From positions 1 to 59,232 of the forward strand of contig JAHJNL010000032.1 in the NCBI GenBank assembly GCA_018820855.1: DNA of 59,232 nt, read 5' to 3'. This document shows, one piece after another, positions 22,154 to 54,768 of this stretch. This stretch comes from Pseudomonadota bacterium (GTDB taxonomy: Bacteria > Desulfobacterota > Desulfobulbia > Desulfobulbales > Desulfocapsaceae). Both the position numbers and the translations under genes were made by a program. Each line of letters begins with the position of its first letter. The first letter of the stretch is position 1. The notes below the pieces were generated by a model. That model saw only the letters and a program-made list of their open reading frames with translations. It was not told the DNA's origin and made no database searches.

Positions 22154-22786
22154 TATACTGAGAACAAAATGGTGTTTTATACTGGCTGACACCGCAATGC
22201 ACCATGGTATCTGCAGAAAAGAAGGAGGGCCTTCGGCCCCCGCAAGGTACCTTCCTCCATGCACCACCTGTGTCGCAACAAAAGTGCCCCGCTGACGCAC
22301 AGAGTGCCACACCAGCCGTAATCCGATTACGATAACGCAACATTGGTTTACCGGCTTATCTTGCACAAACCGTCACATAATAAATATTATACCAAACGAT
22401 ATCTGCCAGTTATGCTCAACAAATTACTTCCAATAATTATTATCAACGAAATACGCAAGGAAACAGGTCGTTAATCATTAATGTGGCATAAATTCAATTT
22501 TTTTTTCCCCTGAATGCTCCGAATAACTATTTAAGATTCCAGTTAAAAAGCTACCACGAAAAAAAACTCCTGACGGAAAACGGAAAAAAACACCAAATGA
22601 TATTACAATTTCTCTTGTGAAATTGGCCTAAAACCTTTTATAGTGAAAACAGAAGACAGGATAAAGCAAGATGTCATCCGGCGATAACTGTATCTGCGGA
22701 AGTGCCTTTGGGAAGAAGACACAATGCATCGACTCTCGGGAATCTGCCTGACGACCGATGGACCGTAAACAAACTGGGAGGGAAAA
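22154..22786. other. Long leader and promoter region of the cytochrome locus
   Basis: These 633 bases have no credible gene. A small GGGCC-TTC-GGCCC hairpin near 22,230 might end glgX transcription. The centre (22,370-22,620) is very AT-rich, including a T-tract around 22,500. The last 170 bases hold a plausible promoter (22615-22644) and a leader of about 135 bases. I looked for the GEMM riboswitch core known ahead of Geobacter nanowire cytochromes and did not find it. Confidence 0.5.
22615..22644 (+). promoter_or_regulatory. Candidate sigma-70 promoter for the first OmcS-like gene
   Basis: TTGTGA (22615-22620) and TATAGT (22639-22644) are separated by 18 bases. The predicted start near 22,651 would give a leader of about 135 bases before the ATG at 22787, whose ribosome site is GGGAGGG. 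Confidence 0.4.
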
Positions 22787-23890
22787 ATGAAAGCAAACAG
22801 GAAGTGGTATTATTATGGAGCCTTGGCAAGCATGGGAATGCTTCTGATGGCCGCCCCCGCATCGGCAAAAGTAAATGGCCAGTGCGCCATCTGCCATACC
22901 ATGCATAACAGTCAGGACAATAAGCCCATGGCCTTTGATGCCGACGGCGACCCCCAGGCAACACCTAATGACGTCCTGCTCCTCAGAGGTTGCGTTGCCT
23001 GTCACACCGGCACCAACGATGGCACCAACGTTATCCCTTATGTGTCTGATACAAGCGCCCCCACCTACGGCACCGACGGTACCACCGGTGACACCCTCGC
23101 CGGCGGCAGTTTCTACTGGGTAGCCAGCGGCACCGCAGGCAACAGTGGAGCAAGCGCTCAATCGACAGGTCACAATGTGGCGACCGATGGCATGGCACCT
23201 CAGGATACAGAACTTCTCAATAATCCGCCAGGGGCCACAACTTCTCTCCTTGCCCAGCTCAGATGCGCCGGAGTCAACGGCTGTCATGGTGACACCACTG
23301 CCACCAGTGATTTTGCTGCCATCTCCGGTACTCACCATGCAGATGATACGGTTATTGACGGCAGCACCACTGCTAAAAGTTTCCGTTTCCTTAAAGGCAT
23401 CGTAGGCCTGGAAGATCCCGACTGGGAATATCAGCCCACAACTACCTCCCATAATCAGTACAAGGGTGTAGACAGAACCAGCGACACTGAAGATGACACC
23501 TCTACCATTTCCTCCCTCTGTGCCCGCTGCCACAATGACTTCCACAACGGCGACGAAAATGTGCAAGGTCCTAATGGCGGCTTCGCCAGCCCATGGGTCC
23601 GTCATCCGACAGATTTTGACATGGGCAATACCGCCGCTGATGCCGAGTACCGTAACTACGGTGGAGCCGGTAACCCTTACGTGGTCTCCGCCCCCGTGGC
23701 CAGCGACGATATCAGTGCTGTAAAAACTGCTATCACCTTCTCAGGTGATGATGCGATTGTTACCTGTATCTCCTGCCATCGAGCACATGGGTCGCAGAAT
23801 GCCGACCTGCTTCGCTGGGATTACGCAGCAGTCTCTGCAGGCACTGGTGGTTCTGGAGCGTGTTTTGAGTGTCATACCAGCAAGATGTAA
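22787..23890 (+). CDS. OmcS-like six-haem-site extracellular cytochrome, probable filament subunit (copy 1)
   Basis: This 367-residue secreted c-type cytochrome has a signal peptide ending at APASA and a mature N-terminus KVNGQCAICHTMHNS. Haem motifs in order are CAICH, CVACH, an atypical CAGVNGCH (CX5CH), CARCH, CISCH and CFECH. Their order and surroundings follow Geobacter OmcS: CHTMHNS at the N-terminus, GGxFxWV then GHN, QLRC, SFRFLKG for OmcS AYRILGG, CARCHNDFHN for CANCHTDIHN, RHP, CISCHRAHGS for CLSCHRAHAS, and a last CXXCH at the very C-terminus. In the OmcS filament the histidine of CHTMH ligates a haem of the neighbouring subunit, and that residue is kept. Enough extra histidines exist for bis-His ligation. 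Likely role: polymerised extracellular nanowire. It is terminated separately from the downstream genes, suggesting high expression. Confidence 0.8.
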   Translation: MKANRKWYYYGALASMGMLLMAAPASAKVNGQCAICHTMHNSQDNKPMAFDADGDPQATPNDVLLLRGCVACHTGTNDGTNVIPYVSDTSAPTYGTDGTTGDTLAGGSFYWVASGTAGNSGASAQSTGHNVATDGMAPQDTELLNNPPGATTSLLAQLRCAGVNGCHGDTTATSDFAAISGTHHADDTVIDGSTTAKSFRFLKGIVGLEDPDWEYQPTTTSHNQYKGVDRTSDTEDDTSTISSLCARCHNDFHNGDENVQGPNGGFASPWVRHPTDFDMGNTAADAEYRNYGGAGNPYVVSAPVASDDISAVKTAITFSGDDAIVTCISCHRAHGSQNADLLRWDYAAVSAGTGGSGACFECHTSKM

Positions 23891-23924
23891 GATCACCCTG
23901 TAAGGTAGACACACTGACCACCGG

Positions 23925-23962
23925 ATCCCCCTGTTCCTTTCCCGTGAACAGGGGGATTTTTT
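23925..23962 (+). terminator. Strong rho-independent terminator after the first OmcS-like gene
   Basis: A perfect 12-bp stem pairs ATCCCCCTGTTC (23925-23936) with GAACAGGGGGAT (23946-23957) around a nine-base loop, followed by a T-run (23957-23962). It lies 35 bases after the stop codon and should separate most of this transcript from the conduit genes. Confidence 0.9.
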
Positions 23963-24066
23963 GTGTCAGGCCCCTGTAATCTGCGTGTGGCATGCAATTT
24001 TTTCCATCAACAGGGGGCTCACCTGTGTGGCCAGTCAATAACGACAATTTTCCTTATTTCTTGAGT

Positions 24067-24189: not shown

Positions 24190-26289
24190 GTGAACAGTCT
24201 AGGGTTTCATAACAAGTTTTCTTTCCACTCTTGGCTCTCCTTTTGCTTTTGCTGCCTTTTCATGCTCAATTCCGCCCAGGTCCATGCAGAAGAGGTCGCC
24301 CTTGATGCCTCCTGGCAGGTCAGTGCAAACCATACAGGCGAAACAGAGGATACCAATGCCTTTAACCAGCGTTACGGCCTGCAATGGAATCCGCGAGTGA
24401 CACGCGCCATTTTTTTTGACGGCAACATGAATTACTCCCGGAACGTGACAACCGGTGATATTGTCCGCGAATCCCTCTCACCCACCGGCACTCTGCAGGT
24501 TGAAAACGACATCTTTCTCGCCGAAGTCAGTGGTTTCATGAACAAGACCTACAACTCCCAAAGCTATGATCAGCTCGACACCAACTGGGAGGCCCTTCTC
24601 GCCACCAACTGGGACTATCCTCTCTGGCCAAATCTGAGTATCAATATAGGCCAAAACTGGTTCACCGACAGTGAAGAGGTGCATGTGACCGACAGCAGCC
24701 GAAAATGGTCAGAATTTATCGCTAAGTGGGAGTTGGATGATTTTGAGGCCTACTATAGCTATTACACCCAGCTGCGGGATGACTTCGTTGAACAAAGCAG
24801 CTATGATGAAAAAAAGCATTTCGGCCGCATTGATTATGGCCGCTCCTTTTTCACCAACCGGATGAACATGACTTTTTCCGGACAAGTCACCAACACTGCC
24901 ACCGACATCACCGCCGAAGGTAATAACATCTCAATCAGAGTAGGGCTCAGCCAGGGTCTGGCCGGTATAGACCCCACTCCGAATTCCGGAAGTCTTCCCA
25001 CATCACCCGGCCTCATCGACGGCAATACCAACAACACGGCCTTCTCCATCAACTTCAACGAGTTCGCCAACCTCGGAGTCAAAGCAGACTTCCAGGTGAT
25101 TGACACCCTCTACGTGTACACCACTCAGATTGACCCGCTGCTCATCTCCGAAACCAATTCACTGCGCTGGGATCTCTACTCAAGTGATGACGGAGTAAAC
25201 TGGCAGCGAGAAGCAACCAATCCAGCCACCATCTATAATCAGGACAGATCCCGTTTTGAGGTAAATGTAGGCGGCCTGCAACGAATCTATCTGAAACTGG
25301 TGGTAACAGGCTGGCCGCTGTCACTTGTCATCCCGGTCACCGAAATAGAGGCCTATCGCAACCAGACCAGCTCCGGCGACAATTTCGCGGAAACCCAGGA
25401 ATACACTCGGTCCTTGACCGATATGAACCTCCGTTATACACCCAGCACAAACACCAGCATCAGCTACTCTCTGGTCTGGGACGACTCCGACTACACTACC
25501 GGCAACGACCGTACTCGCTTGTTTCAGACAGGGAATGCCAGATGGAGATACAATGATTACTTCATTCCCTCATTTACCATCAACAATACAACCACGGATA
25601 ACAGTGCCATTTCCGATACCAGCCAACGCTCATACGCCTTGGCCGTCCAGTCAACGTTTCTGCCCACCCTTGAAACAAACGTTGGCTTAACCAGAAACGA
25701 AAACTCCACAGATACTGTCCTGCAGTCAACGAACAACACCGTCTACCTCAATATGACTGCAGCCCTCTATCCAAACCTGGATACAACCCTGGATATCAAC
25801 ACCATCTTTAATAAGGATGAGCTAGATGGCAGTTCAAACGAAAATATCGGATTGCGCTGGACCCTCACTGCCCGCCTGCGCCCCACTCTTCTCGTTGATT
25901 TTATCGCGGAACACGGTAGCACAGGGGTCGGTTTCACTGAGATAATCGATACTGAGCAATCCGGAGGGCGGGCCACTTTGAACGTGAACTGGCGCCCCTC
26001 TGAACTTCTCTCGATACTGGCCAATGCCTCTCAAGGCTATGGCGATGAGTGGTCCAATTATGAAAGCTTCCGTTTAGATACGAATCTCTCTCTGATTCGC
26101 ACCGCCAAGACCCAGGTTACTGTCGGTTACAAAATCAACATCACCGAAGAGGACACCATTAACAGCTTCAACGCCAACTGGAGTTGGAACATAAGTGAAT
26201 TTTTCACCATGCAGTCCATAGCCAATTACCTCATAACCCAAGATGATAACGGCTGGTATGTCAACGCCCGCCTCACAGCAAGGTTTTAG
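24190..26289 (+). CDS. Outer-membrane beta-barrel porin with discoidin-like insertion, probable cytochrome conduit scaffold
   Basis: This 699-residue protein has an N-terminal signal peptide (cleavage after NSAQVHA), no haem motif, many short amphipathic aromatic strands (for example YSRNVTTGD, LRYTPSTNTSISYSL) and a terminal phenylalanine (NARLTARF), as expected for an outer-membrane barrel. Residues about 285-395 differ: DTLYVYTTQID, SLRWDLYSSDDGVNWQ, RIYLKLVVTG and VTEIEAYRN resemble an F5/8-type (discoidin) sandwich, presumably in an extracellular loop. In porin-cytochrome systems such a barrel sheathes a multihaem cytochrome across the outer membrane. The start is a GTG with a weak, distant ribosome site. 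It begins a run of nearly contiguous genes leading to the 26- and 16-haem cytochromes. Confidence 0.75.
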   Translation: MNSLGFHNKFSFHSWLSFCFCCLFMLNSAQVHAEEVALDASWQVSANHTGETEDTNAFNQRYGLQWNPRVTRAIFFDGNMNYSRNVTTGDIVRESLSPTGTLQVENDIFLAEVSGFMNKTYNSQSYDQLDTNWEALLATNWDYPLWPNLSINIGQNWFTDSEEVHVTDSSRKWSEFIAKWELDDFEAYYSYYTQLRDDFVEQSSYDEKKHFGRIDYGRSFFTNRMNMTFSGQVTNTATDITAEGNNISIRVGLSQGLAGIDPTPNSGSLPTSPGLIDGNTNNTAFSINFNEFANLGVKADFQVIDTLYVYTTQIDPLLISETNSLRWDLYSSDDGVNWQREATNPATIYNQDRSRFEVNVGGLQRIYLKLVVTGWPLSLVIPVTEIEAYRNQTSSGDNFAETQEYTRSLTDMNLRYTPSTNTSISYSLVWDDSDYTTGNDRTRLFQTGNARWRYNDYFIPSFTINNTTTDNSAISDTSQRSYALAVQSTFLPTLETNVGLTRNENSTDTVLQSTNNTVYLNMTAALYPNLDTTLDINTIFNKDELDGSSNENIGLRWTLTARLRPTLLVDFIAEHGSTGVGFTEIIDTEQSGGRATLNVNWRPSELLSILANASQGYGDEWSNYESFRLDTNLSLIRTAKTQVTVGYKINITEEDTINSFNANWSWNISEFFTMQSIANYLITQDDNGWYVNARLTARF

Positions 26290-26292
26290 CTC

Positions 26293-26871
26293 ATGAAAAC
26301 AATTACATACTTGATCATCCTGTCCCTTTCCATCCTCACCTCCTACGGCTGTTCCTCCAAGGAATCATCCATTCAGACCTATCTCCGGGAAGACATAGAT
26401 CTGAGCTACGTTACCAGGGTTGCTATTCTCCCTTTTGAAAACAACACCCAGGATGAATTTGCCTCCAAGCGCATCCGTGATATAACTGCCACTCAGGTCA
26501 TGGCCATGGGCATTTTTGATGTGGCAGACAAGGGCGTTGTCGACAGCGCCCTGAGCGAAATGGGAATTGACCCGACTACTCCTCTGGATGCCCCTCTTGT
26601 CAAACGATTGGCACAGAGACTTAATGTCCAGAGTTTAATCATCGGCACAGTCAACAATATCGGAGAAAGTCGACAAGGCTCATTCAGCTATCCGGAGATG
26701 TCGTTGACCCTCCAGCTCCTGGACGGTGAATCTTCCCTGATACTCTGGCGGACCAGTGACACTCTGAGCGGCTATTCCCTTTCCGACAGACTGTTTGGCC
26801 TCGACCCCATGGATTCTTTCCAAATCACTGTGGAATTGCTAAACAACATGCTTTCAACTATCCCAAAATGA
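26293..26871 (+). CDS. LpoB/CsgG-N-like lipoprotein (first of three)
   Basis: This 192-residue lipoprotein has a signal peptide with lipobox TSYGC (cysteine at residue 20). The mature domain has the alpha/beta fold seen in GNA1162/LpoB and the CsgG N-terminal domain. VTRVAILPFENNTQDEF is the first strand and loop, DITATQVMAMGIFDVADKG the helix, VQSLIIGTVNNIG the central strand, and LTLQLLDGESSLILWRTSDT the last hairpin. Such proteins act in envelope assembly. It starts four bases after the porin gene and overlaps the next start (ATGA-type), so it is translationally coupled to the conduit. Inferred role: assembly or export factor for the porin-cytochrome complex. Confidence 0.7.
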   Translation: MKTITYLIILSLSILTSYGCSSKESSIQTYLREDIDLSYVTRVAILPFENNTQDEFASKRIRDITATQVMAMGIFDVADKGVVDSALSEMGIDPTTPLDAPLVKRLAQRLNVQSLIIGTVNNIGESRQGSFSYPEMSLTLQLLDGESSLILWRTSDTLSGYSLSDRLFGLDPMDSFQITVELLNNMLSTIPK

Positions 26872-28409
26872 CCAGAATGGCAGTACAGCTCCCCATCCAT
26901 AAGGGCCAGGAAAAAAATCTACGGGCTTTGCCCTTTGCCGAATTGTGCCTTGCCCTGCTCATAGTCTTATTCTCCTGGACCGGGATGGCTTCTGCTCAAT
27001 CCATTGCCTTTTTTCCCTTACTCGACCTGAGCGAAGACCCTAATGGCACCAACGGCCCGCTCACCGAAAAGGTGCGCCAGGAACTCCTCAACCGAGAAAA
27101 AACACTTATCCCGGCTGAAGAGATCATGAATTTTCTGGTTCGCAACCGGATCAGAACTCTTGGCAGACTGACCAGCTATCAAACCTCTCTGATTCGTAAA
27201 GAGCTAGGGGCAGATCTGGTGCTTCAGGGTACCGTCTGCCAGGTGGATGAGGGAGATACGCCCCTGCTGAGCCTTAACCTCCAACTCAGCAGAACCTCAG
27301 ACGATCAGATCATCTGGGCCAAAACAGAACATCTCTACTACTCAGATCTGACCAGCCTCCTCGGCCTGGAAGATCCGCACAACCTGGAGGATCTCTATGA
27401 GCCTTTTTTCACCAGTCTTTTTGCCACCCTGCCGGAATCTTCCGATCTTGGCGGTAAAGCGATTGACACCTTAAATATCGATACAGTAATCATATCCCCT
27501 AACTATCTCAGGCCCGGCGAAAAGGTGTCCTGCAAGGTCAAAATGCACAACCTCTTGAATGAAGAGGCAATCCAGCCACAACTTGTACTCTCGGTCAGCG
27601 GCCAGGAATACCCCCTTATTCTCGACGAGGAAGGCTATTACCTGCAGACCTCCTGGCCGGCCGAGCAGGAAGCCGGCTTCTATCCCATAACTTTAAAAGC
27701 CAGTTGGCCATCAGGTATCGTCCAACAGGGGGTTGTCGGTTCCTACAGTGTCGATGTCCAGGAAGCCGGAGTTGAGCTGCACCTGATCGGCACCGAGCAT
27801 GATGGAGAAATCCTCTTCAGCGACAAACTCCTCATCATCCCAAAACTTCTTGAACCCGAGCCCATCACACGTTGGGAAATCACAGTCACTGACGAGGAAG
27901 AAGAGGCCATTGTCATCATGGCGGAGCCCGGTCATGTTCCAAGACGTATTACCTGGCAGGGCAAGACCTCGCTGGGTAGCATAGCACCTCCAGGCAACTA
28001 CTGGATCACCTTCAAGGTCTGGGACCGGGCTCAACGCGAATCCTCCGCCGAAGCAGCAGTACAGTTCAGACCTGACGGACCGGAGATTCTTGTGGAGGTG
28101 ACTCAGGACGAGGAACGTGTGACAGTTGATCTCGACAACATCGTCAATCTCCCCCTCATCTTTTGGTGGGCCAAATTTTATGGAGAAGACGGCAATCTAC
28201 TCAAGCTGGTCCAGGGTAGCGAACTACCGGTGTCCATCGAACTTGAAGGCAGTTCTGACCCGGAATACAAGATTCAGTGCCTGCTGACGGCAAGAGACAT
28301 CCTCGGCAACCAGACTCAAAAAAATATTCCCAACTTATTTAAACTGGCGGAGAGTGAGGCTGACTTTGAAGATATCAGCATCGAAACCGAATGGATAGAG
28401 GAGTTCTGA
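26868..28409 (+). CDS. Large periplasmic CsgG-N-like protein with beta-sandwich C-terminus
   Basis: This 513-residue protein has a long N-terminal region with a hydrophobic segment (about residues 22-45, ending TGMASAQ), so it is exported. Residues about 45-190 again show the CsgG-N/LpoB-like pattern: SIAFFPLLDLSEDPNGTNG, LGADLVLQGTVCQVD and LQLSRTSDDQIIWAKTEHL. The remainder (about 210-513) is beta-rich and looks like two or three Ig-like sandwiches (LRPGEKVSCKVKMHNLLNEE; PGNYWITFKVWDRAQRESSA). No haem or metal motif. It overlaps the preceding gene by four bases and lies three bases before the next. Function unknown; the context suggests a periplasmic scaffold for the conduit. Confidence 0.6.
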   Translation: MTRMAVQLPIHKGQEKNLRALPFAELCLALLIVLFSWTGMASAQSIAFFPLLDLSEDPNGTNGPLTEKVRQELLNREKTLIPAEEIMNFLVRNRIRTLGRLTSYQTSLIRKELGADLVLQGTVCQVDEGDTPLLSLNLQLSRTSDDQIIWAKTEHLYYSDLTSLLGLEDPHNLEDLYEPFFTSLFATLPESSDLGGKAIDTLNIDTVIISPNYLRPGEKVSCKVKMHNLLNEEAIQPQLVLSVSGQEYPLILDEEGYYLQTSWPAEQEAGFYPITLKASWPSGIVQQGVVGSYSVDVQEAGVELHLIGTEHDGEILFSDKLLIIPKLLEPEPITRWEITVTDEEEEAIVIMAEPGHVPRRITWQGKTSLGSIAPPGNYWITFKVWDRAQRESSAEAAVQFRPDGPEILVEVTQDEERVTVDLDNIVNLPLIFWWAKFYGEDGNLLKLVQGSELPVSIELEGSSDPEYKIQCLLTARDILGNQTQKNIPNLFKLAESEADFEDISIETEWIEEF

Positions 28410-28412: not shown

Positions 28413-29006
28413 ATGAAATACTCATCCCTGTGTTCCCTCATTCTTTTTCTTTCCCTCCTGGCCGGCTGCGGAAAAGAGGTCCCTGTTCTCCAGAAGCTGG
28501 AGGCTTTGCCCGCCCAAGGCAGCTGCAAGATTGCCGTCCTCCCGTTCCTTGATAAAATTTCATATCCCCAGGGAGGGGCAATTGTTTACAAAGTATTCTT
28601 TTCCGAACTGGTGGCCACGGGCCGCTTTCAAGTCTTCCCGGAGGGAGACATTCAGGAACTCTATCAACAGCTTCTTATCTACCCTATCCAACAACCCAAC
28701 CGTGAACAACTGGAGATGATCGGAGGCCGACTTAATCCGGACCTTTTTATAGGCGGAACCATATTGAAAATGGAGGAGAGAAAACAGGGCGACTATGTCG
28801 ATACCGAATTAACTCTCATCCTCCATCTCTATGATGGCAAATCAGGACAACTTCTCTGGTCAACCTACCACCGCCGCCTCGGCAGCGAGTATCAGCAGAT
28901 CATGCATCTGGGCAGAATCAACTCCATCACTGGCCTTGCCCGCCGCATGTCCCAGGAAATTATAGCCGACTGGCTTGAACAAGGAATGACCACATGTACC
29001 GAATAA
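28413..29006 (+). CDS. LpoB/CsgG-N-like lipoprotein (third of the set)
   Basis: This 197-residue lipoprotein has lipobox LLAGC (cysteine at residue 19). The mature domain repeats the pattern of the two upstream proteins: CKIAVLPFLDKISYP, SELVATGRFQVFPEGD, LNPDLFIGGTILKMEE and LTLILHLYDGKSGQLLWSTY. It starts three bases after the previous stop and overlaps the isomerase gene by 13 bases. Three divergent members of one fold in a row suggests a hetero-oligomeric envelope assembly. Homology to CsgG is limited to the N-terminal domain; the CsgG transmembrane strands are not evident. Confidence 0.7.
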   Translation: MKYSSLCSLILFLSLLAGCGKEVPVLQKLEALPAQGSCKIAVLPFLDKISYPQGGAIVYKVFFSELVATGRFQVFPEGDIQELYQQLLIYPIQQPNREQLEMIGGRLNPDLFIGGTILKMEERKQGDYVDTELTLILHLYDGKSGQLLWSTYHRRLGSEYQQIMHLGRINSITGLARRMSQEIIADWLEQGMTTCTE

Positions 29007-30616
29007 GCAAAATTCTCTTTTTTTGTTTTATCCTCTCATTATGCGCCGCCCTCCCTCTGCACGGAAGCTGGCTGCCCTGGAGCAGCCAGACCCTTGTCTC
29101 CATAGGTGATGAAGACTACAGCAATGAAGACTTTAAAATCTGGTGGGAAAACTGGCAGGAAAAGGATATGCAACTGCCGGAAAGCCCCGCTCCTTTTGTC
29201 GACTGGATCCTTCTCTTTAAAGAGGCGGAACGGATGAAACTCTACGAGTCCCCGGTATACCGCAAGAAAGCACTCACCTTTCTTAAAGCCAGGACCCTGA
29301 TGTTCCTGAAGAACGAAGAAATCGACAGCAAGATCAAAATCAGTGAGGATGACCTCTGGAAACAGTATCTGAAGAGCCATGCCCCTCAGTATCAAATAAA
29401 TATCTTCTTTTTTAAGAAACAGGAGGCTGCCCAGGCATTCGTTGATAAACTTGGACAGGAAGTTATCAGCGATGAAGAATTTGCCACCAGGCATGGGAGA
29501 GACGACGGCTACTTTTCCCAGCGCAGTGAGTGGTACCGCCCTCTTGCCATTAACCCCGGGTGGCTCCCCATTCTTCATGAGTTGGAAAAGGGAAAAATGA
29601 GCCAGCCGGTTCCATGGAAAGGTGATTTTGTCGTTTTGAGACTGCAGAATGTACTGGAGGGAAATAAAAATGATTTTGAAAGCATCAGAAATCAGTTGCG
29701 GGAGAAAGTCTGGAAAGAGCAGGAGAACAGACTGACCGTCGATCTGCTCACCAGACTCCGCCAGCAGTACCATGTGAAGATAGACAGCGAACGCCTGGAA
29801 CAGCTGGATACCGAGGCGCCGAACGACGCCGGAAGCGATGAACCCCTTATTTTTACAGACAAGGGAAACATCTCAGAACAGATCGTCCTCGCCAAGATCC
29901 ACCAGCTGCAACGCTTCAGAAGACAGAATGGCTTTCAGGTAGAAAATAGTTTTCAATTCAAAAATCAGGTTGTCAATGGTATCATAGATCAGACCCTGAC
30001 TTCCTGGGAGGCCTTGGCCAGAGAGTATGAAAAGAAGCCACCCTTTGAGGCCATATACCAGTTCTACTGTCGGCACCGTATGACCAAAATGCTGGAAGAA
30101 CGGCTTTTTGCCCCCCAGGCAAAGGTGACTGAGGAAGAGATCAAGGCCTATTACCAGGAAAATCTTCACCTCTTCACTCAGCCTGAGATTATTCGGATGG
30201 CAATCATCGAAGGGACAGAAAAGAGTCTCAACGATCTGTGGCTGGAGGTTGCCCTTGGCGGAGACTTCATGACTCTTGCCCGCCAACGCACCGGAGGCGA
30301 TGTTCCAATCCGGGATATCCCGGTCAACCATCTCCACCCGCAGGTGAAAGAGGTGGTTGATAAATTAACCAAAAATGAAGTGAGCAAAGCCTTTACGGTT
30401 GACGAGCATGTGAGCCTTGTCCAGCTGGTAGAGCGCAAACCGAAACAGACCATGCCCCTGGCTGAAGTGAAGGAGGACATTAAGCAATCTCTGTACGTTG
30501 CAAAAATGGCCACACTCCGTCAGGACTATCTTGATAAGCTGCGAGTGGAATACGCTGTAGAGACCAATGACACTGCCTGGCAGAATCTCAAAAAAGAGAT
30601 GGAGCAAGATGATTAG
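28994..30616 (+). CDS. PpiC/SurA-type periplasmic peptidyl-prolyl isomerase with two PPIase-like regions
   Basis: This 540-residue exported protein has a signal peptide ending near LPLHGS. It has SurA-like chain organisation: an N-terminal helical part (SNEDFKIWWENWQEKDMQL), a first parvulin-like region around residues 130-220 (KKQEAAQAFVDKLGQEVISD; MSQPVPWKGDFVVLRLQ), a helical linker, and a second around 395-500 (LYPQ-type entry TEEEIKAYYQENLHLFTQ; NEVSKAFTVDEHVSLVQLVE). Both are divergent and may be chaperone rather than catalytic units. Isomerases of this type often accompany porin-cytochrome and multihaem clusters, where they assist folding of secreted cytochromes. It overlaps its neighbours on both sides. 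Confidence 0.75.
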   Translation: MYRISKILFFCFILSLCAALPLHGSWLPWSSQTLVSIGDEDYSNEDFKIWWENWQEKDMQLPESPAPFVDWILLFKEAERMKLYESPVYRKKALTFLKARTLMFLKNEEIDSKIKISEDDLWKQYLKSHAPQYQINIFFFKKQEAAQAFVDKLGQEVISDEEFATRHGRDDGYFSQRSEWYRPLAINPGWLPILHELEKGKMSQPVPWKGDFVVLRLQNVLEGNKNDFESIRNQLREKVWKEQENRLTVDLLTRLRQQYHVKIDSERLEQLDTEAPNDAGSDEPLIFTDKGNISEQIVLAKIHQLQRFRRQNGFQVENSFQFKNQVVNGIIDQTLTSWEALAREYEKKPPFEAIYQFYCRHRMTKMLEERLFAPQAKVTEEEIKAYYQENLHLFTQPEIIRMAIIEGTEKSLNDLWLEVALGGDFMTLARQRTGGDVPIRDIPVNHLHPQVKEVVDKLTKNEVSKAFTVDEHVSLVQLVERKPKQTMPLAEVKEDIKQSLYVAKMATLRQDYLDKLRVEYAVETNDTAWQNLKKEMEQDD

Positions 30617-47091: not shown

Positions 47092-47342
47092 GATTCCTCC
47101 TTCAATGTTCTTTTTGCTGTAAAGCACATTTCAGGGACTACACACAATCTGAGTCTCCCAATTCTTCCTCTTCCCATTTTCAACTATTCAGTTAAATGAA
47201 TACCTCATTTAACTAAAATTGAAAATACCACAGCGTAGAGTTAGAACAAGAAAAGAATGTTTTTTCAAGACGTTCCTGTGTAAATTCCAGCCAAAGATCT
47301 GGGAATATCTCCCAGAACAACAGCAAACCTGCACAGAAAGGC

Positions 47343-49562
47343 TCACTTTCCTACGGGACCTCTTTGTTTACTGTTGTGATAGTACTTGAATCTGAACAGG
47401 GCATCGAGTCCATGACAATCTATACACATCAGACTGTAGGTTTGCATGCGTAAGAAACTGTTAGTAGTTCGCCCTTCCAGATTTTCTCCTGTTCCCGGTC
47501 CGGCAACTTTTGGATCCCAACGATGTACGTCATGGCAGGAAGCACAGGAAATATCCCCCACAGTCACCTTCTTTCCACTTCTCCGCTGAAAAAGAGGAAA
47601 ATAGTTCGACTCGCCCTTAACGTTCCGCCCCACATTGGTAATCAACATTCCTTCGGGATGAGAATCCACACTGGGCACCTTCTTTGCGCCGATATTCTTC
47701 TTGTTATGGCAGGACTTGCACATCTTATCCATTACCCCATTCCCTTTTCCCAGCTCACGGGCCCAGAGACGCACCTTGTTTTTTCCGTTATGGACAAGAT
47801 GACAGGCCCCGCAGGCCCCTGACTGCGCGGGGGTCTGTCCCAGAAAATTTTTGGAATCCGGAGCGAGGATGGTCATATCATGATCTGTCATTGCCACATA
47901 GGACTGATCAACATGACAATTAGCACAGAGGAGAGGAGCCGAGGCACTTTTTAAACGAAGGAAACTATTATGCCCATCTCCCTCCTTGCCAGCAGAGTTG
48001 ACAACCGCCTCTTTTGCCGGATCCCACTGATGGGGATTATGACAGGTGAGACAGGTCACCACACCTGCCTCATTCTTTTGGCCTTTTTTGTCATAAAGAG
48101 GCAGGGTTGTTGTTATTCCCCTCCTGTTGGGATCGATATTCACAGGATGAGACCGCTTGCCGAGAACCTTGGTTCCGGCTGTTCCGTCTGTATTATGACA
48201 GGCAAGACAAACTGCCTCTGCCGGCTGTCGAGACCTGTTTTTACTGTCAATGGCCCACAGCTTTTTGTTGTCCGCCATGTGGATCAAATGGCAGACTCCG
48301 CAGGTTCCGGACTCAAGCGGGCTCTGCCCCTGGCTGTTCATCGACTTGGAACCGGCCGCCAAAAGATCATGGTCGGTCAACTCCACCCGGCTCTCGGCGG
48401 AATGACACTGTCTGCACAGTTCCGGCGAAGGTTTGTTGGTAAGGCGGAGAAACTTGTCTCCGGCTGCAAGCTCTCCTCCGGGCTGCACCTTTCTGCCCTT
48501 GTGGGGATCATGACAGGTGGGACAGGAGAGGATTCCCTGGTCCAGAGCAACTCGCCTGCCCTCAACACTGAACACCGGCAGTTGCGGATCCATCCCCTTA
48601 TCCATCATCGAGACATTATAGGGATGGGAATAATCCGAGAGTATTTTCTTCTTGGCAAGGCCTCCTTTTTGATGGCAACTTACACAGAGGTCCATAGCCT
48701 TGTAACCAGTCGATTTTTCTGGCATCTTTCTGGCCCACAACATCACCTCACTGGCCCCGTGTACAAGATGACAGACACCGCAGATTCCCGATTGGGCCGC
48801 AGTCTTTCCTTTTAGATTAGTGGCTTCAGGAGAACTAATACGCAGATCATGAACCGTATCCACCAATGCCGCCTTGTCGCTGTGACAGTCAAGACAGAGT
48901 TGCCCCCCGCCCTGAGCACTATCAATCAAAAACTTATCATTGGGAGCGCCATGCACCCTGTGACAACTCTCACAGATAACCTGATTTTCCCTGTTCCCGT
49001 CAACGGCTCCCAATTTTCGCAACTCGGGAGAAAATTTAATCTTCGTTGAATCGATGGGGTGATTCCCCTTGTCCGGTCCGCCGTCTTTATCTTTATGACA
49101 CTGCCGGCACATACCGGAATCATCATTAGAGGTACGGACAAAGATGGTCTTATCCATCCCCATTTCGCTTGGCACCCCATGGGCGGTATGACAGGTCGAG
49201 CACTGCATGAAACCGTTTTCGTCCAGAGGAAAAATCTCTGGGATTTCCATGCCGGCAGGAGGCGGTTTGTTAATGGGATGATGCTGATCGTTGTAGACCC
49301 GGGCCCGAGAATCAGCCACACTGCCATCATGACAGGAATGACAAATCTCAGCCTTGGCGACCACTTTATCGGCCTGATAGGGAACCAGCTCCGACCCTCT
49401 GCCATAGAGAAAGAAGGTGTCTATCCACCGATAATGACAGAGGGCACATTCCTTGGCAGAACTCGGATTACTGGGGGCCGCGACTTCGGCCAAGCCAACA
49501 TGAGGAGACAACAGAACAAGGACAAGGAAAACAGAAGAGACAAGGTAATAAAGCTGCTTCAT
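47343..49562 (-). CDS. 18-haem c-type cytochrome with three tandem four-haem modules
   Basis: This 739-residue exported protein has a signal peptide ending HVGLA and eighteen CXXCH motifs, CALCH first and CIDCH last. From the seventh haem on, a four-haem unit of about 150 residues repeats three times: CGxCHLxH followed by LWA, then a CxxCH before SHP, then a CxxCH before PH or VH and a free spacer, then a CxxCH before TDHD or the end. For example CGVCHLVH, CGVCHLIH and CGACHLVH open the three units. The first six haems are a variant four plus two. It lies 27 bases after the NHL gene on the same strand. Probably a large periplasmic or surface electron carrier. Confidence 0.87.
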   Translation of the reverse strand: MKQLYYLVSSVFLVLVLLSPHVGLAEVAAPSNPSSAKECALCHYRWIDTFFLYGRGSELVPYQADKVVAKAEICHSCHDGSVADSRARVYNDQHHPINKPPPAGMEIPEIFPLDENGFMQCSTCHTAHGVPSEMGMDKTIFVRTSNDDSGMCRQCHKDKDGGPDKGNHPIDSTKIKFSPELRKLGAVDGNRENQVICESCHRVHGAPNDKFLIDSAQGGGQLCLDCHSDKAALVDTVHDLRISSPEATNLKGKTAAQSGICGVCHLVHGASEVMLWARKMPEKSTGYKAMDLCVSCHQKGGLAKKKILSDYSHPYNVSMMDKGMDPQLPVFSVEGRRVALDQGILSCPTCHDPHKGRKVQPGGELAAGDKFLRLTNKPSPELCRQCHSAESRVELTDHDLLAAGSKSMNSQGQSPLESGTCGVCHLIHMADNKKLWAIDSKNRSRQPAEAVCLACHNTDGTAGTKVLGKRSHPVNIDPNRRGITTTLPLYDKKGQKNEAGVVTCLTCHNPHQWDPAKEAVVNSAGKEGDGHNSFLRLKSASAPLLCANCHVDQSYVAMTDHDMTILAPDSKNFLGQTPAQSGACGACHLVHNGKNKVRLWARELGKGNGVMDKMCKSCHNKKNIGAKKVPSVDSHPEGMLITNVGRNVKGESNYFPLFQRRSGKKVTVGDISCASCHDVHRWDPKVAGPGTGENLEGRTTNSFLRMQTYSLMCIDCHGLDALFRFKYYHNSKQRGPVGK

Positions 49563-49589: not shown

Positions 49590-50561
49590 TTATCTGTTGA
49601 TCTGGAAGACACTGACACGTTCTGCAAACATCTGGACAACATAGAGACGATCCTTTTTGTCTATAAAAAGGCCTACCGGGGAATTATACCTCCACAGCTC
49701 ATCTTTTTTACTGTCTCCGATCACGGAATGAAAAACCCCTTCATCAAAGACCTGGACAACCCCCATATAGGAATCACTCACATAGACCCTTCCTTTCGAA
49801 TCGACAGCTACTCCTTTGGGCCTGAAAAACTGCCCCTTTTCCACACCCCAGTCCCCAATAAACCGGACAAACTTCCCATCGCGGGTCATTTCCTGGACCC
49901 GGGTATTGATCACATCAACAATATAGAGATACTTATCTCTATCCATCGAGATCAGAAAAGGATAGCGAAACTCCATCCGCGCAATACCTGCATTACCGAT
50001 GACCTCAAGCAGCTTGAGTGTTTTCAGATCATATTTATAGATACAGTGATTGTCGTTATCGACAACAAAGACCTCAGTCCCTTCACTATCTACGGCAACA
50101 TCAGTTGGATCAGGCACCTTCCCACTCGTGGATTCAACCTTGATTTCATTAAGAAAACGCCCTTTGATCGAAAATATCTGCACCCTCTGATTGCCGCTGT
50201 CGGCGACATAAAGCCTGCCTGCACCATCAATGTCCATACCCAGGGGATAGTTAAACTGACCAGGTCCGCTGCCGGCCTCACCGAAGGAAAAAAGAAATTT
50301 ACCTTTCGAATCAAAGACCTTTATACACTGGTTGACTCCGTCCACCACATAAATGAAGCCATCAGCCCCCACGGCAACATCACTGGGCTGAGAAAAGTTA
50401 TGCTGAATATCAAAAAGATGCGTGACCGGGGTCAAATTAATGGAATAGACCGGATCGGCCATCATCAGAAATACAAAAAGGAGGATGAGTCCGTTACGGA
50501 CAAGTCCTCCTTTTTTCTTGCCTTTGGCAAACAAATAATTCCTGCCAACCATTCTTTTCAT
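49590..50561 (-). CDS. Exported NHL-repeat beta-propeller protein
   Basis: This 323-residue protein has an N-terminal basic region and a hydrophobic segment (about 21-40, ending MADPVYS), then six clear NHL blades: PSDVAVGADGFIYVVDGVNQ, PLGMDIDGAGRLYVADSGNQ, PTDVAVDSEGTEVFVVDNDN, PFLISMDRDKYLYIVDVINT, PKGVAVDSKGRVYVSDSYMG, PVGLFIDKKDRLYVVQMFAE. This is the most regular propeller of the locus. GAGG precedes the ATG. It lies between the inner-membrane cytochrome module and the 18-haem cytochrome, separated from the former by a hairpin. Likely a scaffold for the neighbouring cytochromes. Confidence 0.87.
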   Translation of the reverse strand: MKRMVGRNYLFAKGKKKGGLVRNGLILLFVFLMMADPVYSINLTPVTHLFDIQHNFSQPSDVAVGADGFIYVVDGVNQCIKVFDSKGKFLFSFGEAGSGPGQFNYPLGMDIDGAGRLYVADSGNQRVQIFSIKGRFLNEIKVESTSGKVPDPTDVAVDSEGTEVFVVDNDNHCIYKYDLKTLKLLEVIGNAGIARMEFRYPFLISMDRDKYLYIVDVINTRVQEMTRDGKFVRFIGDWGVEKGQFFRPKGVAVDSKGRVYVSDSYMGVVQVFDEGVFHSVIGDSKKDELWRYNSPVGLFIDKKDRLYVVQMFAERVSVFQINR

Positions 50562-50633: not shown

Positions 50634-51584
50634 TTATCCTTCGGCCCTGTCAACAGGTGGAAGGTTTTCATCCTCGGGAACAGACGGGGCCGGTTCGACC
50701 GGAAGTAACGGTTCTACCGGGTCAACAGGATGGCTTACACCGGGATTGAGCATCTTTGGCATATAGAATTTTGTGTAATTCTTGATCATGCCAACGACCT
50801 CGGTGCTGGTAATGGAATCTACTCGCCTTTTGGGATATCCAAGATCAGCGAGCGGCAGGAGAGGATTCTCGCTGGAATGGCACTCCTCGCATATCACTGG
50901 TTTTTTGCTGACGACATTATGGATTATACTCTTGGACTTTGATTTCTGGCCTTCAGTTAACTCCTTTTCATTCAGGCGGTATTGCTCGACAAAATCGATC
51001 TTTGCCTGAGTGTCGATCCTTACCAGGGAGCCATTCTCCATGATAAAGGGGATAATCTTAGCCTTGTAGGTACCAGGGGGCGCATCGTTCACTGGGCTTG
51101 GGATAATCTCGCCGGTCTCCCGACTATACCACTGGTAAACCCCGGTAGCCATCTCTCCTTCCGGACGGGCGTGACATGTCTGACAGCCGATGAAAAAGGC
51201 GTGCATGTTCAAAAATGCCCGCAAGTCCTTAGTTACAGAATCGTGGGGCATATCCCCATGACAGGAACTGCAGTAGGAGTGTCTGTCCGGTCCGACATCA
51301 TAACCAATATGATGGAAATGCCCCTTGATATACTGCTGTTCAAGGACCCGGTAACCGAGATAGTGCTTGGTCCGCTTCTCACTTTTCAGAATCACCTGCT
51401 CAAAAGATTTATCATCCTTTTTCTTCTGGGCCAGAGATTCTTCAGTATGCTCCGTATTGGCGGCATTCCGTTCATGATACTCATGAATGATATGAGCAAA
51501 GGTAAGATTCCAGATTATTACCCCGAAATAGACAACCAAGGCCATAAAGGCCAGGATGTAGAGTTTTGTTAACAACTTTTTCAT
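50634..51584 (-). CDS. Membrane-anchored three-haem c-type cytochrome
   Basis: This 316-residue protein has an uncleaved-looking N-terminal helix (about residues 7-28, AFMALVVYFGVIIWN) that anchors it in the inner membrane with the rest in the periplasm. Three CXXCH motifs: CSSCH, CQTCH and CEECH, with additional histidines (HFHHIGYD, MPHDS, NMHAFF) for ligation. The C-terminal 40 residues are Pro/Glu-rich and disordered. Its start overlaps the cytochrome b stop by four bases (ATGA), so the two are translationally coupled. It is loosely NapC/NirT-like in layout but not clearly in sequence. Likely takes electrons from the cytochrome b. Confidence 0.82.
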   Translation of the reverse strand: MKKLLTKLYILAFMALVVYFGVIIWNLTFAHIIHEYHERNAANTEHTEESLAQKKKDDKSFEQVILKSEKRTKHYLGYRVLEQQYIKGHFHHIGYDVGPDRHSYCSSCHGDMPHDSVTKDLRAFLNMHAFFIGCQTCHARPEGEMATGVYQWYSRETGEIIPSPVNDAPPGTYKAKIIPFIMENGSLVRIDTQAKIDFVEQYRLNEKELTEGQKSKSKSIIHNVVSKKPVICEECHSSENPLLPLADLGYPKRRVDSITSTEVVGMIKNYTKFYMPKMLNPGVSHPVDPVEPLLPVEPAPSVPEDENLPPVDRAEG

Positions 51585-52498
51585 ACTGCTGCCCCTCCTT
51601 CCTTTACTAAATGCTCTGACGACTGGGTTCCACTTGGACTTTCCGGAGGAGATTGCCCGGGACCACCCTTCGGAGCATGTTTAGAACAACTCGGGGCATG
51701 GCCTCCGCCATGGGGCGGCAGGATCTCTTTTTCATACCCTTCTGCCTTCATGACCTTTACATAATGCTCATAATGTTCCTCACACATCAGTTCCTCACTC
51801 AGGTAACCTGTCAGGAAGACGGTACCCATAGGAAAGACCGAGGTGGAAAAATGGACATTATACCAATGCCAGATAAAGAGAAACAGACCCGCCAAAAGGG
51901 CTTCGTCGCTGTGGGCAATCAGACAGAAATTGATAAATTCTCCCGGGATGACCTGGGTAAAGAACTCCTTGTTCCAGATAATTAACCCAGAAGCACCGAT
52001 AATAAACATACCCCAGAAGGGTGCCCAGTAGTCGAACTTCTCCTTCCAGGTGTACTCATCACCATCGGGACGGACGTTGGTATAGTAAAAGAGGTATTTC
52101 ATCAAGTCAATGACATCTCTCAGGTCCTTGAGATTGGGCACCATAGGCAGCTTAAGTACCCTCATGGCAAACTTCCCCTTGGTAAAAGTCCCCTCCCTTT
52201 TCATGGGCAGATAGTGATCATTATAAATCACCTTGAAGATCCAAAAAATGTGATAGGAAAAAAGAAGGAGCATAATGGCCCCGGTTATCTTATGGACTGT
52301 GGGAGCCATGGTGATGCCACCAAACAATGCATAAAGATAGGGCGACCAGAAGGCGTCACTGAATTTAAGCGGCATACCGCTTAAGACCAGGATCACGACC
52401 GTGGCGGCCAGGATAATATGCTGGATTCTCAGATCCAGATCAAATCTGAAAAAGTATTTTTCGCCGTTTATAATTTTAATCCGAGGATACTTGGCCAT
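51581..52498 (-). CDS. Di-haem cytochrome b subunit (b561/FdnI-like), probable quinol oxidase of a Cbc-type complex
   Basis: This 305-residue inner-membrane protein has four main helices. Histidines placed for two b haems are His27 (LRIQHIILAATVV), His69 (APTVHKITG), His83 (LLFSYHIFW) and those in FIWHWYNVHFS near residues 210-216. The C-terminal 45 residues (PPHGGGHAPSCSKHAPKGG) are Gly/Pro/His-rich with one cysteine and no haem motif. Genes on both sides encode membrane-anchored c-type cytochromes, spaced 5 bases upstream and overlapping 4 bases downstream. Geobacter Cbc complexes have the same cytochrome b plus multihaem c composition. Inferred role: menaquinol oxidation and electron delivery to periplasmic cytochromes. 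Confidence 0.82.
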   Translation of the reverse strand: MAKYPRIKIINGEKYFFRFDLDLRIQHIILAATVVILVLSGMPLKFSDAFWSPYLYALFGGITMAPTVHKITGAIMLLLFSYHIFWIFKVIYNDHYLPMKREGTFTKGKFAMRVLKLPMVPNLKDLRDVIDLMKYLFYYTNVRPDGDEYTWKEKFDYWAPFWGMFIIGASGLIIWNKEFFTQVIPGEFINFCLIAHSDEALLAGLFLFIWHWYNVHFSTSVFPMGTVFLTGYLSEELMCEEHYEHYVKVMKAEGYEKEILPPHGGGHAPSCSKHAPKGGPGQSPPESPSGTQSSEHLVKEGGAAV

Positions 52499-52503
52499 GA
52501 TTT

Positions 52504-53556
52504 CTATTTCCTCCTTTTGAAGCTGGCATTCGGAAACAAGCGCCGTAGTAGATCAAGGAACAAAATAGCCATCAGCGGTAGCAAAGTTCCTCCGGTAAGG
52601 ACGTAAAAGAACGAGGTAAACCAGTAAACAAACGGGCTTTTTTCCTTATCGAACACAGGATGCACCTGATAATTAGCAAACTGAACAGAGGCATTGGGAT
52701 GGCAATCAACCGAGTTGCAGATTGCTCCTCTGTTATTCGGATGAGTGGAGGATCTGGGATCATCATTCCCATACATCTGATGCACAGATTTCCCCTTCAC
52801 TACATGACAGTCAAGACAGTCAGGAATCGATTCATCAAGCAGATTGGCGGCCTTGCCGTGAAAAGTCTCCTGATAAGATGAACCGGCCATGATAGTCAAT
52901 CCGTGGCGCTTCACCATCTCTTTATCATCATGACATTTTCCACAGGCCTCAGCGACATTAAGAGGACTACGGCTCTTGTGCAGACGAGTGGTAATATGAT
53001 TATAAAACCTGAAGATAAAATCTTCCTTCTCGTGACAGACCCGGCATCTTCCCATGGCATCATCGGCAATACCGGGACGCACTTTTTTGACAAAGGCAAG
53101 GGGTCTGAAGAGAGGATTGTCATGGCAATCCTTACAGGTCGGCATATCTTCGTTGTATTTCTTGAGTTTTCCTTCTTTATCAACCTTGCTGTGGACAGAT
53201 TCATCCATGAAGGTTTTTACGGATTTGTGTGAGAATTTCTGCTCACTGGTAGGCTCGATAATATGGCAGACCGCCAGACAATCGACCGGCTTGGCTGGTT
53301 CATGTGGAATTTTGGTGATGTCGGCATGACACCCCTCACACTTAACCTTAGAATGAACACTTTTATTAAAAATTTCCTCATTGACGAACATCAATTTCAT
53401 ATTGCCGCTTTGATCAATCCGACTCAGGCCTGGATACTTGTGACACAACAAACAGTTACCCATGTCTGCTGCCGACAACCATCCAGGCAGCAGACAAAGC
53501 GCAACAAGCAGAGCCCTGAAAGACCAGCGCGGTCCTGGAAACAAGTTCAACAACAT
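52504..53556 (-). CDS. Eight-haem-site c-type cytochrome with C-terminal membrane anchor
   Basis: This protein has 350 residues from the ATG at 53556, set by AAGGGGGGGG directly upstream; the frame extends 12 codons further. The signal peptide ends LPGWLSA. Six CXXCH motifs (CLLCH, CEGCH, CKDCH, CRVCH, CGKCH, CLDCH) plus atypical CLAVCH (CX3CH) as third and CNSVDCH (CX4CH) as last. A C-terminal helix (FVYWFTSFFYVLTGGTLLPL onward) followed by a basic tail anchors it to the inner membrane with the haems outside. It lies five bases before the cytochrome b gene. Likely electron exit subunit of the same complex. Confidence 0.85.
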   Translation of the reverse strand: MLLNLFPGPRWSFRALLVALCLLPGWLSAADMGNCLLCHKYPGLSRIDQSGNMKLMFVNEEIFNKSVHSKVKCEGCHADITKIPHEPAKPVDCLAVCHIIEPTSEQKFSHKSVKTFMDESVHSKVDKEGKLKKYNEDMPTCKDCHDNPLFRPLAFVKKVRPGIADDAMGRCRVCHEKEDFIFRFYNHITTRLHKSRSPLNVAEACGKCHDDKEMVKRHGLTIMAGSSYQETFHGKAANLLDESIPDCLDCHVVKGKSVHQMYGNDDPRSSTHPNNRGAICNSVDCHPNASVQFANYQVHPVFDKEKSPFVYWFTSFFYVLTGGTLLPLMAILFLDLLRRLFPNASFKRRK

Positions 53557-53751
53557 TCCCCCCCCCTTATACTTATTTAGATGTATGAACAACTCTAACT
53601 CTTTTGCCGGACAATCTTGGCATGGTCAGGGATAATTCTTCCCCTTATCCCTGTTCCTTGCCTCACTTTGCATCATCGCGCATCCTGTCTGGTAATGCAG
53701 CGAACGGCGCATCAAGATGGCCGGCATCTTTCTCTCTCCTCTCCTCTTCTG

Positions 53752-54768
53752 TTAATTATTTTGATGGCACGCCAGACAGATTTTATCTCCGCCCCTTGAC
53801 ACCCGTAAACGCCCGGCTTCCCCGGCGCCTCCGGCTCCTGTCTTGTCCGCCGGGATAACTCCCCGTTCATGCGGATTATGACAGGTGACACAGGTTACTT
53901 TTCCCTGGGCATCAAGAGGTAGAATTATCCCCAACTTACGTTCCGATCTCCGCATATTTTTCAAAATTGCGGCCGGAGGCTTTTTGAGGTGATTGGCGTT
54001 GATGGGGTGCAGCTGTATCTGCTTATAATGACAGCGATAACAGAGCACATCAAGCTTACCGATAGGAGCCACAAGATCACCCATCCCATGGGGATCGGCA
54101 AGAGTGGCACGGTTGACATCCGGAACACCTTTGTGACAGTAAAGACATTTCTCCTTAACGACATTCCCCTCCTTATCTATCTGATTATGCGGATCCATCA
54201 TCTTGTATTTGGCCTCACTATGGCACTGATAACAGATAGCTGTCCGTGACATCAGAGGGTTGATCCGCAGAAAAGAACTGTTGAATTTTTTCATACTGCT
54301 ATCGGTCTGACACTGCAGGCTCATGCGGTGACAGGTGACACAGGTGATAGTACTGTCCTTAAGGGGAAAGTCTGATGGGATCTTGGCTCGTTTTTCAGGA
54401 GATAATTTTATTCCTACGGGATGAGTGTAGTTCTCGGGAGTATAGTTATGACAGCGACAGGTTTCGATAAAATCATCAAAACGCATATCCACATCCCCCT
54501 GGCCTTCGGCATTCAGGTGGCACTCGTTGCAGTAATACTTGCTGAAATGAATATTGGTGTTAGCGTTGACTCCGGGATTTACAAATGTCAACTGATTGCC
54601 ATCAATTTCCCTGGCAAAAGAGATGTTGCTGATAAAAATGAAATAGATCAAACAGGCTACGCTATAACGGATAAAAGAAATTTTACTTACTTTGGAAACT
54701 CTACACAAGTTGAGACAACACCAGAGGGCTTTCCGCAATATAGTTCCCCTAAATTTTGAACATATCAC
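53752..54768 (-). CDS. Seven-haem exported c-type cytochrome
   Basis: This 338-residue frame starts at a GTG (54768) with no clear ribosome site, so the start is uncertain. A hydrophobic signal segment is at about 34-52 (VACLIYFIFISNISFA). Seven CXXCH motifs: CNECH, CVTCH, CYQCH, CLYCH, CYRCH, CVTCH, CLACH, plus an unusual CRCH (CXCH) in ETCRCHNYTPENYTH where a haem site would be expected. CVTCHNPHERG is doubled-CXXCH-like; the last haem lies at the C-terminus. It is the first gene of the minus-strand half, 195 bases before the anchored eight-haem gene. Likely periplasmic. Confidence 0.82.
   Translation of the reverse strand: MICSKFRGTILRKALWCCLNLCRVSKVSKISFIRYSVACLIYFIFISNISFAREIDGNQLTFVNPGVNANTNIHFSKYYCNECHLNAEGQGDVDMRFDDFIETCRCHNYTPENYTHPVGIKLSPEKRAKIPSDFPLKDSTITCVTCHRMSLQCQTDSSMKKFNSSFLRINPLMSRTAICYQCHSEAKYKMMDPHNQIDKEGNVVKEKCLYCHKGVPDVNRATLADPHGMGDLVAPIGKLDVLCYRCHYKQIQLHPINANHLKKPPAAILKNMRRSERKLGIILPLDAQGKVTCVTCHNPHERGVIPADKTGAGGAGEAGRLRVSRGGDKICLACHQNN

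Follow-up and report, generated by a model that had tools for sequence, protein, structure and literature searches.

A candidate quinol-to-wire gene island in a Desulfocapsaceae genome: an osc-type cytochrome cluster adjoining a quinol module

The secretion, anchoring and electron feeding of cytochrome wires are told as unresolved even in Geobacter (PMC12307469). In one set of Geobacter genomes, those with a homologue of the OmcS-like GSU2501 all have, downstream of it, the eight-gene block GSU2500-GSU2493, which has been tied to the maturation and secretion of OmcS and includes GSU2495, a 26-haem protein (PMC12977616). The entire operon of Geobacter sulfurreducens, GSU2501-GSU2493, credited to Shen et al. 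2025 (via PMC12977616 and PMC13194489), is called osc (omcS-companion), oscC, the gene of the OmcS-like hexahaem cytochrome, being GSU2501, oscI GSU2495 and oscJ GSU2494, with proposed roles in folding (OscH), secretion (OscE, OscF and OscG) and morphology (OscD) (PMC13194489). The same gene kinds have been read as the OetABI conduit in sulfate reducers living as partners of anaerobic methanotrophic archaea (ANME) (PMC10553843), and a core operon of 26-haem, 16-haem, peptidyl-prolyl isomerase (PPIase) and propeller genes has been described, with two copies in Desulfurivibrio alkaliphilus (PMC5539420). Geobacter also has the Cbc-type menaquinol:cytochrome c oxidoreductases, such as Cbc5 (cbcEDCBA) and CbcBA (PMC11434368, PMC12307469), and OmcS genes have been recorded by FeGenie in Thermodesulfovibrionia (PMC8478452). 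The present work concerns a stretch of 59,232 nucleotides (nt), hereafter the window, which is one entire contig (C8; JAHJNL010000032.1) of a 4.82-Mb Desulfocapsaceae genome in 106 contigs (GCA_018820855.1) and on which a cluster of the osc type and a module built around a cytochrome b, the quinol module, adjoin each other. With a probability of about 0.6, this island is an osc-type wire-assembly operon and a quinol module working as one unit.

The likeness to osc lies in an OmcS-family cytochrome gene followed by an eight-gene block, the block of the window (24190-34777) fitting the gene kinds of osc in order when the two are compared by description, as far as the published accounts state these kinds; the assignment of the barrel to OscD and of the propeller to the last gene of the block is suggested by gene order. 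A six-frame survey of open reading frames (ORFs; stop-to-stop, at least 80 amino acids, aa) gave 12 cytochrome ORFs between 22769 and 54795 with 123 CXXCH motifs in total (5, 26, 16, 5, 8, 5, 10, 14, 18, 3, 6 and 7, in order), while three further ORFs of the window have a single CXXCH each. The cytochrome ORFs also contain seven atypical haem-type sites, namely one CX5CH in each of the two OmcS-family proteins, CX3CH and CX4CH in 52504-53592, CX4CH and CX3CH in 45304-47127, and one CXCH, found by eye in the translation, in 53752-54768. An earlier sequence-only reading of this DNA had counted just these numbers, and the survey and the translations bear it out; likewise, every layer it had named—cytochrome b, anchored c-type partners, large cytochromes, barrel and OmcS-family cytochromes—is present.

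Sixteen genes run on the plus strand (22787-43649) and eight on the minus strand (54768-43796), so that the halves converge, as had been proposed, on a strong hairpin (-34.9 kcal/mol over 56 nt; z -8.5 against 200 shuffles), probably a bidirectional terminator. The two arms are the sole exact matches of its 15-base arm sequence in the 4.82-Mb genome, by which a repeated element was ruled out. The plain two-operon structure proposed at the same time does not hold, since the halves are broken up by gaps of 299, 301, 179, 449 and 215 nt, the first of them with a terminator-like hairpin; this internal hairpin, following the first OmcS-family gene, may allow a surplus of the wire subunit.

Concerning the OmcS family, a profile of 19 OmcS-like homologues (A2), including the first such protein of the window, retrieved OmcS itself from PDB (6ef8_A, E 2.9e-29), the next family, cytochrome c-552, following at 1.9e-4. 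The 19-row profile was needed, as OmcS was missed by a single-sequence phmmer search of PDB even at E values up to 1. Thirteen histidines are invariant in the 19 homologues (six proximal and seven others) and would therefore be enough ligands for six bis-His haems. The third haem-type site of the alignment is CX5CHG in 18 of the 19 rows, the exception (L062; L and G numbers denote loci and genomes) having CXXCH there; the first cysteine of this site is aligned with a CXXC in OmcS itself. By pattern alone, CX5CHG was found in 33 of 36 OmcS-family relatives (BLAST above 70 bits, ORF longer than 300 aa, identical tails dropped, window proteins excluded) from both Desulfobacterota and Nitrospirota, L062, one G161 protein and one G159 protein being the exceptions. 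Judged from these alignments, CX5CH probably is a genuine haem site that escapes a count of CXXCH; such a count gives most of these proteins five haems, and surveys based on it may miss genes of the family; the term CX5CH was not found in open-licence PMC literature among the matches listed. The sequence-only reading had spoken of two OmcS-like filament cytochromes: their membership of the family is supported by the profile, and the filament is suggested by the homology to OmcS. A third gene of the family immediately precedes the quinol module, in the same orientation, in L045/L066 (G012) and L068.

The other half is centred on a cytochrome b of the formate-dehydrogenase gamma/b561 kind (Table 1), for which TIGR01583 was matched at 1.4e-11, under the cut-off, and FdnI (1kqf_C) at E 0.0096; invariant His residues are present across eight aligned sequences (A1). 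As far as gene content tells, the conserved unit of this half is made of the 6+2-haem cytochrome, cytochrome b, 3-haem cytochrome, propeller and 18-haem cytochrome. All five kinds were present, within the stretch covered, in 40 of the 43 most similar loci (L065-L107, among the best 80 of 383 relatives), some matches being distant, partial or in a different order; L082 and L091 are short of some kinds at a contig end and L105 has the cytochrome b only. By their titles, these loci come from metagenome-assembled genomes (MAGs) of Desulfobacterota and Nitrospirota, one of Deferribacteres and two of Verrucomicrobia. The CX3CH and CX4CH sites are retained in every full-length anchored cytochrome of at least 58% identity.

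The linkage of the two halves was followed in an order-level set of 146 genomes, in which the barrel was matched in 60, a close cytochrome b (above 400 bits) in ten and both in five. The convergent island lies on a single contig in G000, G012 and G088; in G140 it extends over two contigs with the break near the 10-haem and last propeller genes, in G079 it is present up to a contig end inside the 3-haem gene, and in G082 the barrel and cytochrome b are on different contigs. Both halves are also convergent on one contig in L065 (G146). G012, G079 and G140 belong to the genus of the window, G088 to another family. In a phylum set of 345 genomes, the barrel was matched at E 1e-15 in 44 and the cytochrome b at E 1e-60 in nine, three of the latter being unfused and above 340 bits. 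Judged from these matches, one half alone is the rule in the phylum of the window. The sequence-only reading had held that relatives routinely carrying one half would tell against it; a single half is indeed commoner in the order, but the convergent island recurs in the genus and in one other family.

Outside this phylum, 47 genomes of the Nitrospirota order of G157 were covered, a close cytochrome b (at least 434 bits) being found in 22, a barrel match in 27 and both in 19. An osc-type cluster and the module share one contig in seven of the 47 (G150, G153, G156, G157, G161, G181 and G186), five of them with the two divergent and two with them collinear; G150 reveals no more of the cluster than its barrel-side part, because of a contig end. 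In G187 the cluster is linked to a diverged module copy only, and in G178, left out of the count, a barrel and two lipoproteins lie about 38 kb from the module, the rest being absent; G148 is treated below, and the remaining carriers of both, with separate contigs, were left out of the judgement. In G156 (L094) and G187 the 10-haem, redoxin-TPR and 14-haem genes adjoin the module again. The linkage noticed in the window thus recurs in relatives and in another phylum—convergent in Desulfobulbales, divergent or collinear in Nitrospirota—and supports, short of proof, one quinol-to-wire unit, as far as gene neighbourhoods can suggest it. No description of the Nitrospirota linkage was found in titles or abstracts of open-licence PMC among the matches listed.

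With regard to the history of this linkage, the Desulfobulbales rows form one group in the cytochrome b tree (67 rows; 93/98), within which the joined-island genomes (window, L065, L068, G012, G140 and G088) group at only 88/69 and stand next to seven rows whose genomes gave no barrel match. The tree of the 26-haem protein (19 rows) splits Desulfobulbales from Nitrospirota at full support and groups the joined genomes at 98/96. It should be pointed out that both trees come from one search each, with long branches and odd composition flagged, that L077, titled Deferribacteres, is placed with Nitrospirota, and that the island of L068 is seen only up to a contig end. The simplest reading of the trees would be one joining in Desulfobulbales and a separate one in Nitrospirota; conceivably, though, the linkage is old and has been lost repeatedly.

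The features of the island are collected in Table 1.

Table 1 Genes and hairpins of the island, in the order of the window
Feature	Position	Strand	Basis or remark
OmcS-family cytochrome 1 (OscC position)	22787..23890	+	5 CXXCH + CX5CH
Terminator-like hairpin + T6 after OmcS-family gene 1	23915..23975	+	z -4.7
Large outer-membrane beta-barrel (OscD/OetI position)	24190..26289	+	AF2 mean pLDDT (predicted local distance difference test) 83.9
PelC/LpoB-like lipoprotein (OscE position)	26293..26871	+	lipobox-like SYGC; Pfam LpoB 20.6 bits, under cut-off
Secreted protein, weak FlgD-Ig-like matches (OscF position)	26868..28409	+	2/8 homologues also match LpoB
Second PelC/LpoB-like lipoprotein (OscG position)	28413..29006	+	lipobox LAGC
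Periplasmic PPIase (OscH position)	28994..30616	+	PF13145 E 9.3e-28
26-haem cytochrome (OscI/OetB position)	30567..32597	+	CXXCH count; lipobox-like LFSC
16-haem secreted cytochrome (OscJ/OetA position)	32597..33778	+	16 CXXCH
NHL beta-propeller	33884..34777	+	PF01436 5.2e-7
OmcS-family cytochrome 2	35079..36137	+	5 CXXCH + CX5CH
8-haem cytochrome	36201..37559	+	CXXCH count; homologues sit after OmcS-like gene in both phyla
YncE-like propeller, probable lipoprotein	37603..39048	+	PF21783 4.3e-8
5-haem cytochrome	39228..40436	+	CXXCH count
Inner-membrane protein, HAMP-like by weak matches	40433..41056	+	family scans
10-haem cytochrome	41183..42373	+	CXXCH count
NHL beta-propeller	42336..43649	+	PF01436 3.1e-11
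Junction hairpin	43732-43781		17 unbroken pairs at stem base
Redoxin-fold + TPR protein without CXXC	43796..44854	-	family scan + motif check
14+2-haem cytochrome	45304..47127	-	14 CXXCH + CX3CH + CX4CH
18-haem cytochrome	47343..49562	-	CXXCH count; full-length relatives mostly 18-24 CXXCH
NHL beta-propeller	49590..50561	-	PF01436 2.3e-29
3-haem cytochrome, N-terminal membrane anchor	50634..51584	-	CXXCH count
Cytochrome b, formate-dehydrogenase gamma/b561 (FdnI/b561) kind	51581..52498	-	PF01292 8.7e-8, over cut-off
6+2-haem cytochrome, C-terminal membrane anchor	52504..53592	-	6 CXXCH + CX3CH + CX4CH
Cytochrome with 7 CXXCH + one CXCH	53752..54768	-	translation

The barrel has no Pfam or NCBIfam family match. 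The first VIA row of its model is MtrB (6r2q_B; Z 18.9, root-mean-square deviation 7.7, 422 aligned), followed by unrelated porins from Z 18.0 down, and Foldseek placed siderophore receptors on top (template modelling score, TM, 0.3-0.4) with 6r2q_B at rank 4 (TM 0.41/0.44); the MtrB row of the model is taken only as consistent with a barrel of the MtrB type. Between the strands of the model, at residues ~245-375, a folded domain is inserted, discoidin-like by eye only. For both kinds of small lipoprotein, a joint profile (A4) had PelC, the export lipoprotein of Pel polysaccharide, as its best though distant structure match (9h80 at 5.1e-10, 5t11 at 5e-9), followed by GNA1162 and LpoB; among its 20 members, 15 match LpoB, ten GNA1162-like and three CsgG families in Pfam at E 0.01. 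The cargo of these PelC-like lipoproteins would here be a cytochrome. The TIGR03508 match of the 26-haem protein, of 284.7 bits against a cut-off of 192.2 and spread over several short stretches, was not accepted as membership of DmsE, and the DmsE-, NrfH- and HmcA-type NCBIfam matches of the cytochromes were put down to common CXXCH spacing, only TIGR03508 being over its cut-off besides the generic doubled-CXXCH model.

Several observations concern the minus half and its surroundings. Two tandem copies of the quinol module with diverged sequences, in many Nitrospirota one of them strongly so, were seen in Nitrospirota L083-L088, L094, L095, L102, L104 and L106, and more than one copy also in L089 and L103 (Desulfobacterales titles). 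A cytochrome b occurs inside ORFs of 556-923 aa in G004, G028, G118, G064 (45-49% identical in these four), G271, G485, G404 and G522, i.e. in fused, perhaps CbcL-like, form. CXXC is missing from the redoxin-TPR protein of the window and from all nine further ORFs compared (two pairs of which are from the same genomes), yet it adjoins the 14-haem cytochrome in two phyla. A homologue of the latter is positioned between an OmcS-family gene and the barrel in L064:1910-3736 (G026 contig C39 63909-65735), and to judge from gene order the 14-haem cytochrome may be part of the wire machine and not of the quinol module. In G088 (C1 2954559-2976529), a one-contig genome, five island genes are each split into two ORFs by sequencing error or decay. 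Around the island, the flanks 18900-22153 and 55344-57777 hold genes kept in close relatives, i.e. an Lcl-domain protein and an isoamylase in G079 and G146, and GDSL, unknown and PanE genes in L065. The GC content has no step at the left island edge and drops to 0.446 at the right one, and Rfam and tRNA scans of the window gave no matches.

Read from the genes, their family and fold assignments, their conservation and their linkage, the mechanism would begin in the inner membrane, where the minus half, as a quinol:cytochrome c oxidoreductase of cytochrome b and two anchored multihaem partners, would take electrons from menaquinol through cytochrome b to the anchored 6+2- and 3-haem cytochromes. 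The large cytochromes of this half would then ferry them across the periplasm, towards the osc complex or away from it. The plus half—barrel, PelC/LpoB-like lipoproteins, PPIase, 26- and 16-haem cytochromes and propellers—would fold, export and electrically contact the OmcS-family cytochromes, the probable subunits of polymeric extracellular wires, so that the path would end from the 16- and 26-haem cytochromes at the barrel over the wire to an outside acceptor or partner. The whole path may run in reverse, and the two halves would be expressed jointly.

A rather unlikely alternative is that the plus half is mainly a porin-cytochrome conduit of the OetABI type, the barrel holding the 26- and 16-haem cytochromes and the OmcS-like proteins being accessory surface cytochromes and not wires. 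A barrel, a lipoprotein-type cytochrome and a second secreted cytochrome are found in one cluster of the window, the same gene kinds have been published as such for syntrophic sulfate reducers (PMC10553843), and the MtrB row of the barrel and the lipobox-like site of the 26-haem protein point the same way. Three secretion-type proteins and a PPIase inside the block would, however, have no obvious place in a bare conduit, and the block has been tied to OmcS maturation and secretion (PMC12977616, PMC13194489); a machine for wire export and assembly, which the PelC-like lipoproteins fit, appears, from these families, as a strong rival of the conduit. As to direction, it is possible, albeit tentatively, that the wires gather electrons from a partner or mineral and that the cytochrome b module passes them to menaquinone for use in sulfur respiration. 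The genome has dsrA over the family cut-off, hence a cytoplasmic sulfur pathway, and a reverse operation of CbcBA has been proposed for Seep-SRB2 (PMC10553843); the three NiFe-hydrogenase loci of the genome are, on the other side, other electron sources, so that the host is a sulfur metaboliser with such sources at hand, and the direction is not fixed by sequence.

The one-unit reading itself has to be weighed against the improbable case that the halves adjoin by accident, cytochrome clusters gathering in such genomes and each half having its partners unlinked. Several results count against one unit: 54 of the 60 barrel carriers in the order have no close cytochrome b (a 55th, G079, is left out because its contig ends within the module) and five of the ten cytochrome b carriers have no barrel match, hence neither module depends on the other; the one-contig chromosome of the Nitrospirota MAG G148 has both modules far apart; the Nitrospirota clusters have no match above 55 bits to the second small lipoprotein, the 5-haem cytochrome and the membrane protein at 40433; the AlphaFold model of the OmcS-like protein, with a pLDDT of 41.5, is too poor to show a polymer interface; and, in the 300 nt upstream (five genomes on the plus side and two on the minus side, start codons partly chosen by rule), no 8-mer is conserved in both sets. 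The two upstream regions of the window share six 8-mers, against a shuffle mean of 4.1, and in the regions compared the fuller sigma-54 pattern had no match, a bare GG-N10-GC being found upstream of the plus half in G146, G079 and G140; separate transcription units are likely. The barrel shows no clear enrichment among the cytochrome b carriers of the order (5/10 vs 60/146). Accident is opposed by the renewed linkage of most parts in Nitrospirota under other gene orders, twice (G156/L094 and G187) with the three accessory genes mentioned above, and by a barrel match in 19 of the 22 genomes of that order with this cytochrome b, a raw count uncorrected for relatedness.

For the reading as one unit, the quinol module kept beside wire-assembly genes in two phyla would supply candidate partners for the wires, on one segment open to deletion and transplant tests. 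A further step, put forward as a doubtful one, is a transferable and complete quinol-to-wire unit, in which the minus module would be the dedicated electron source and the 18-haem cytochrome the trans-periplasmic bridge, much the same parts having been assembled independently in bacteria of the Desulfobulbales and Thermodesulfovibrionia types and the wire subunits binding one haem via CX5CH.

Compared with the known systems, the plus half is, by its gene kinds, a published kind of locus (osc/OetABI) and the minus half a separate module resembling Cbc in make-up. The newness implied for the plus half by the sequence-only reading is accordingly lost, the same gene kinds being published in the sources at hand, and its remark that such modules are scattered in Geobacter fails for this half, which has a contiguous osc block there (PMC12977616). 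Two copies of such a cluster are present in G004. With OetABI and the core operon of PMC5539420, the window has in common the barrel, the 26- and 16-haem cytochromes, the PPIase, the propeller and the OmcS-like cytochromes; unlike the window, these are presented in the excerpts of those articles with no mention of a linked quinol module. Cbc5 and CbcBA resemble the minus half in joining a cytochrome b with several c-type partners, in the window with a membrane-anchored multihaem one (51581-53592), the minus half differing by its extra propeller and 18-haem cytochrome and its two anchored cytochromes; the likeness is drawn from make-up. From osc, as compared by description only, the window differs by its further OmcS-family gene downstream, by another six genes up to the junction, by the CX5CH site of the OmcS-family proteins and by the adjoining quinol module.

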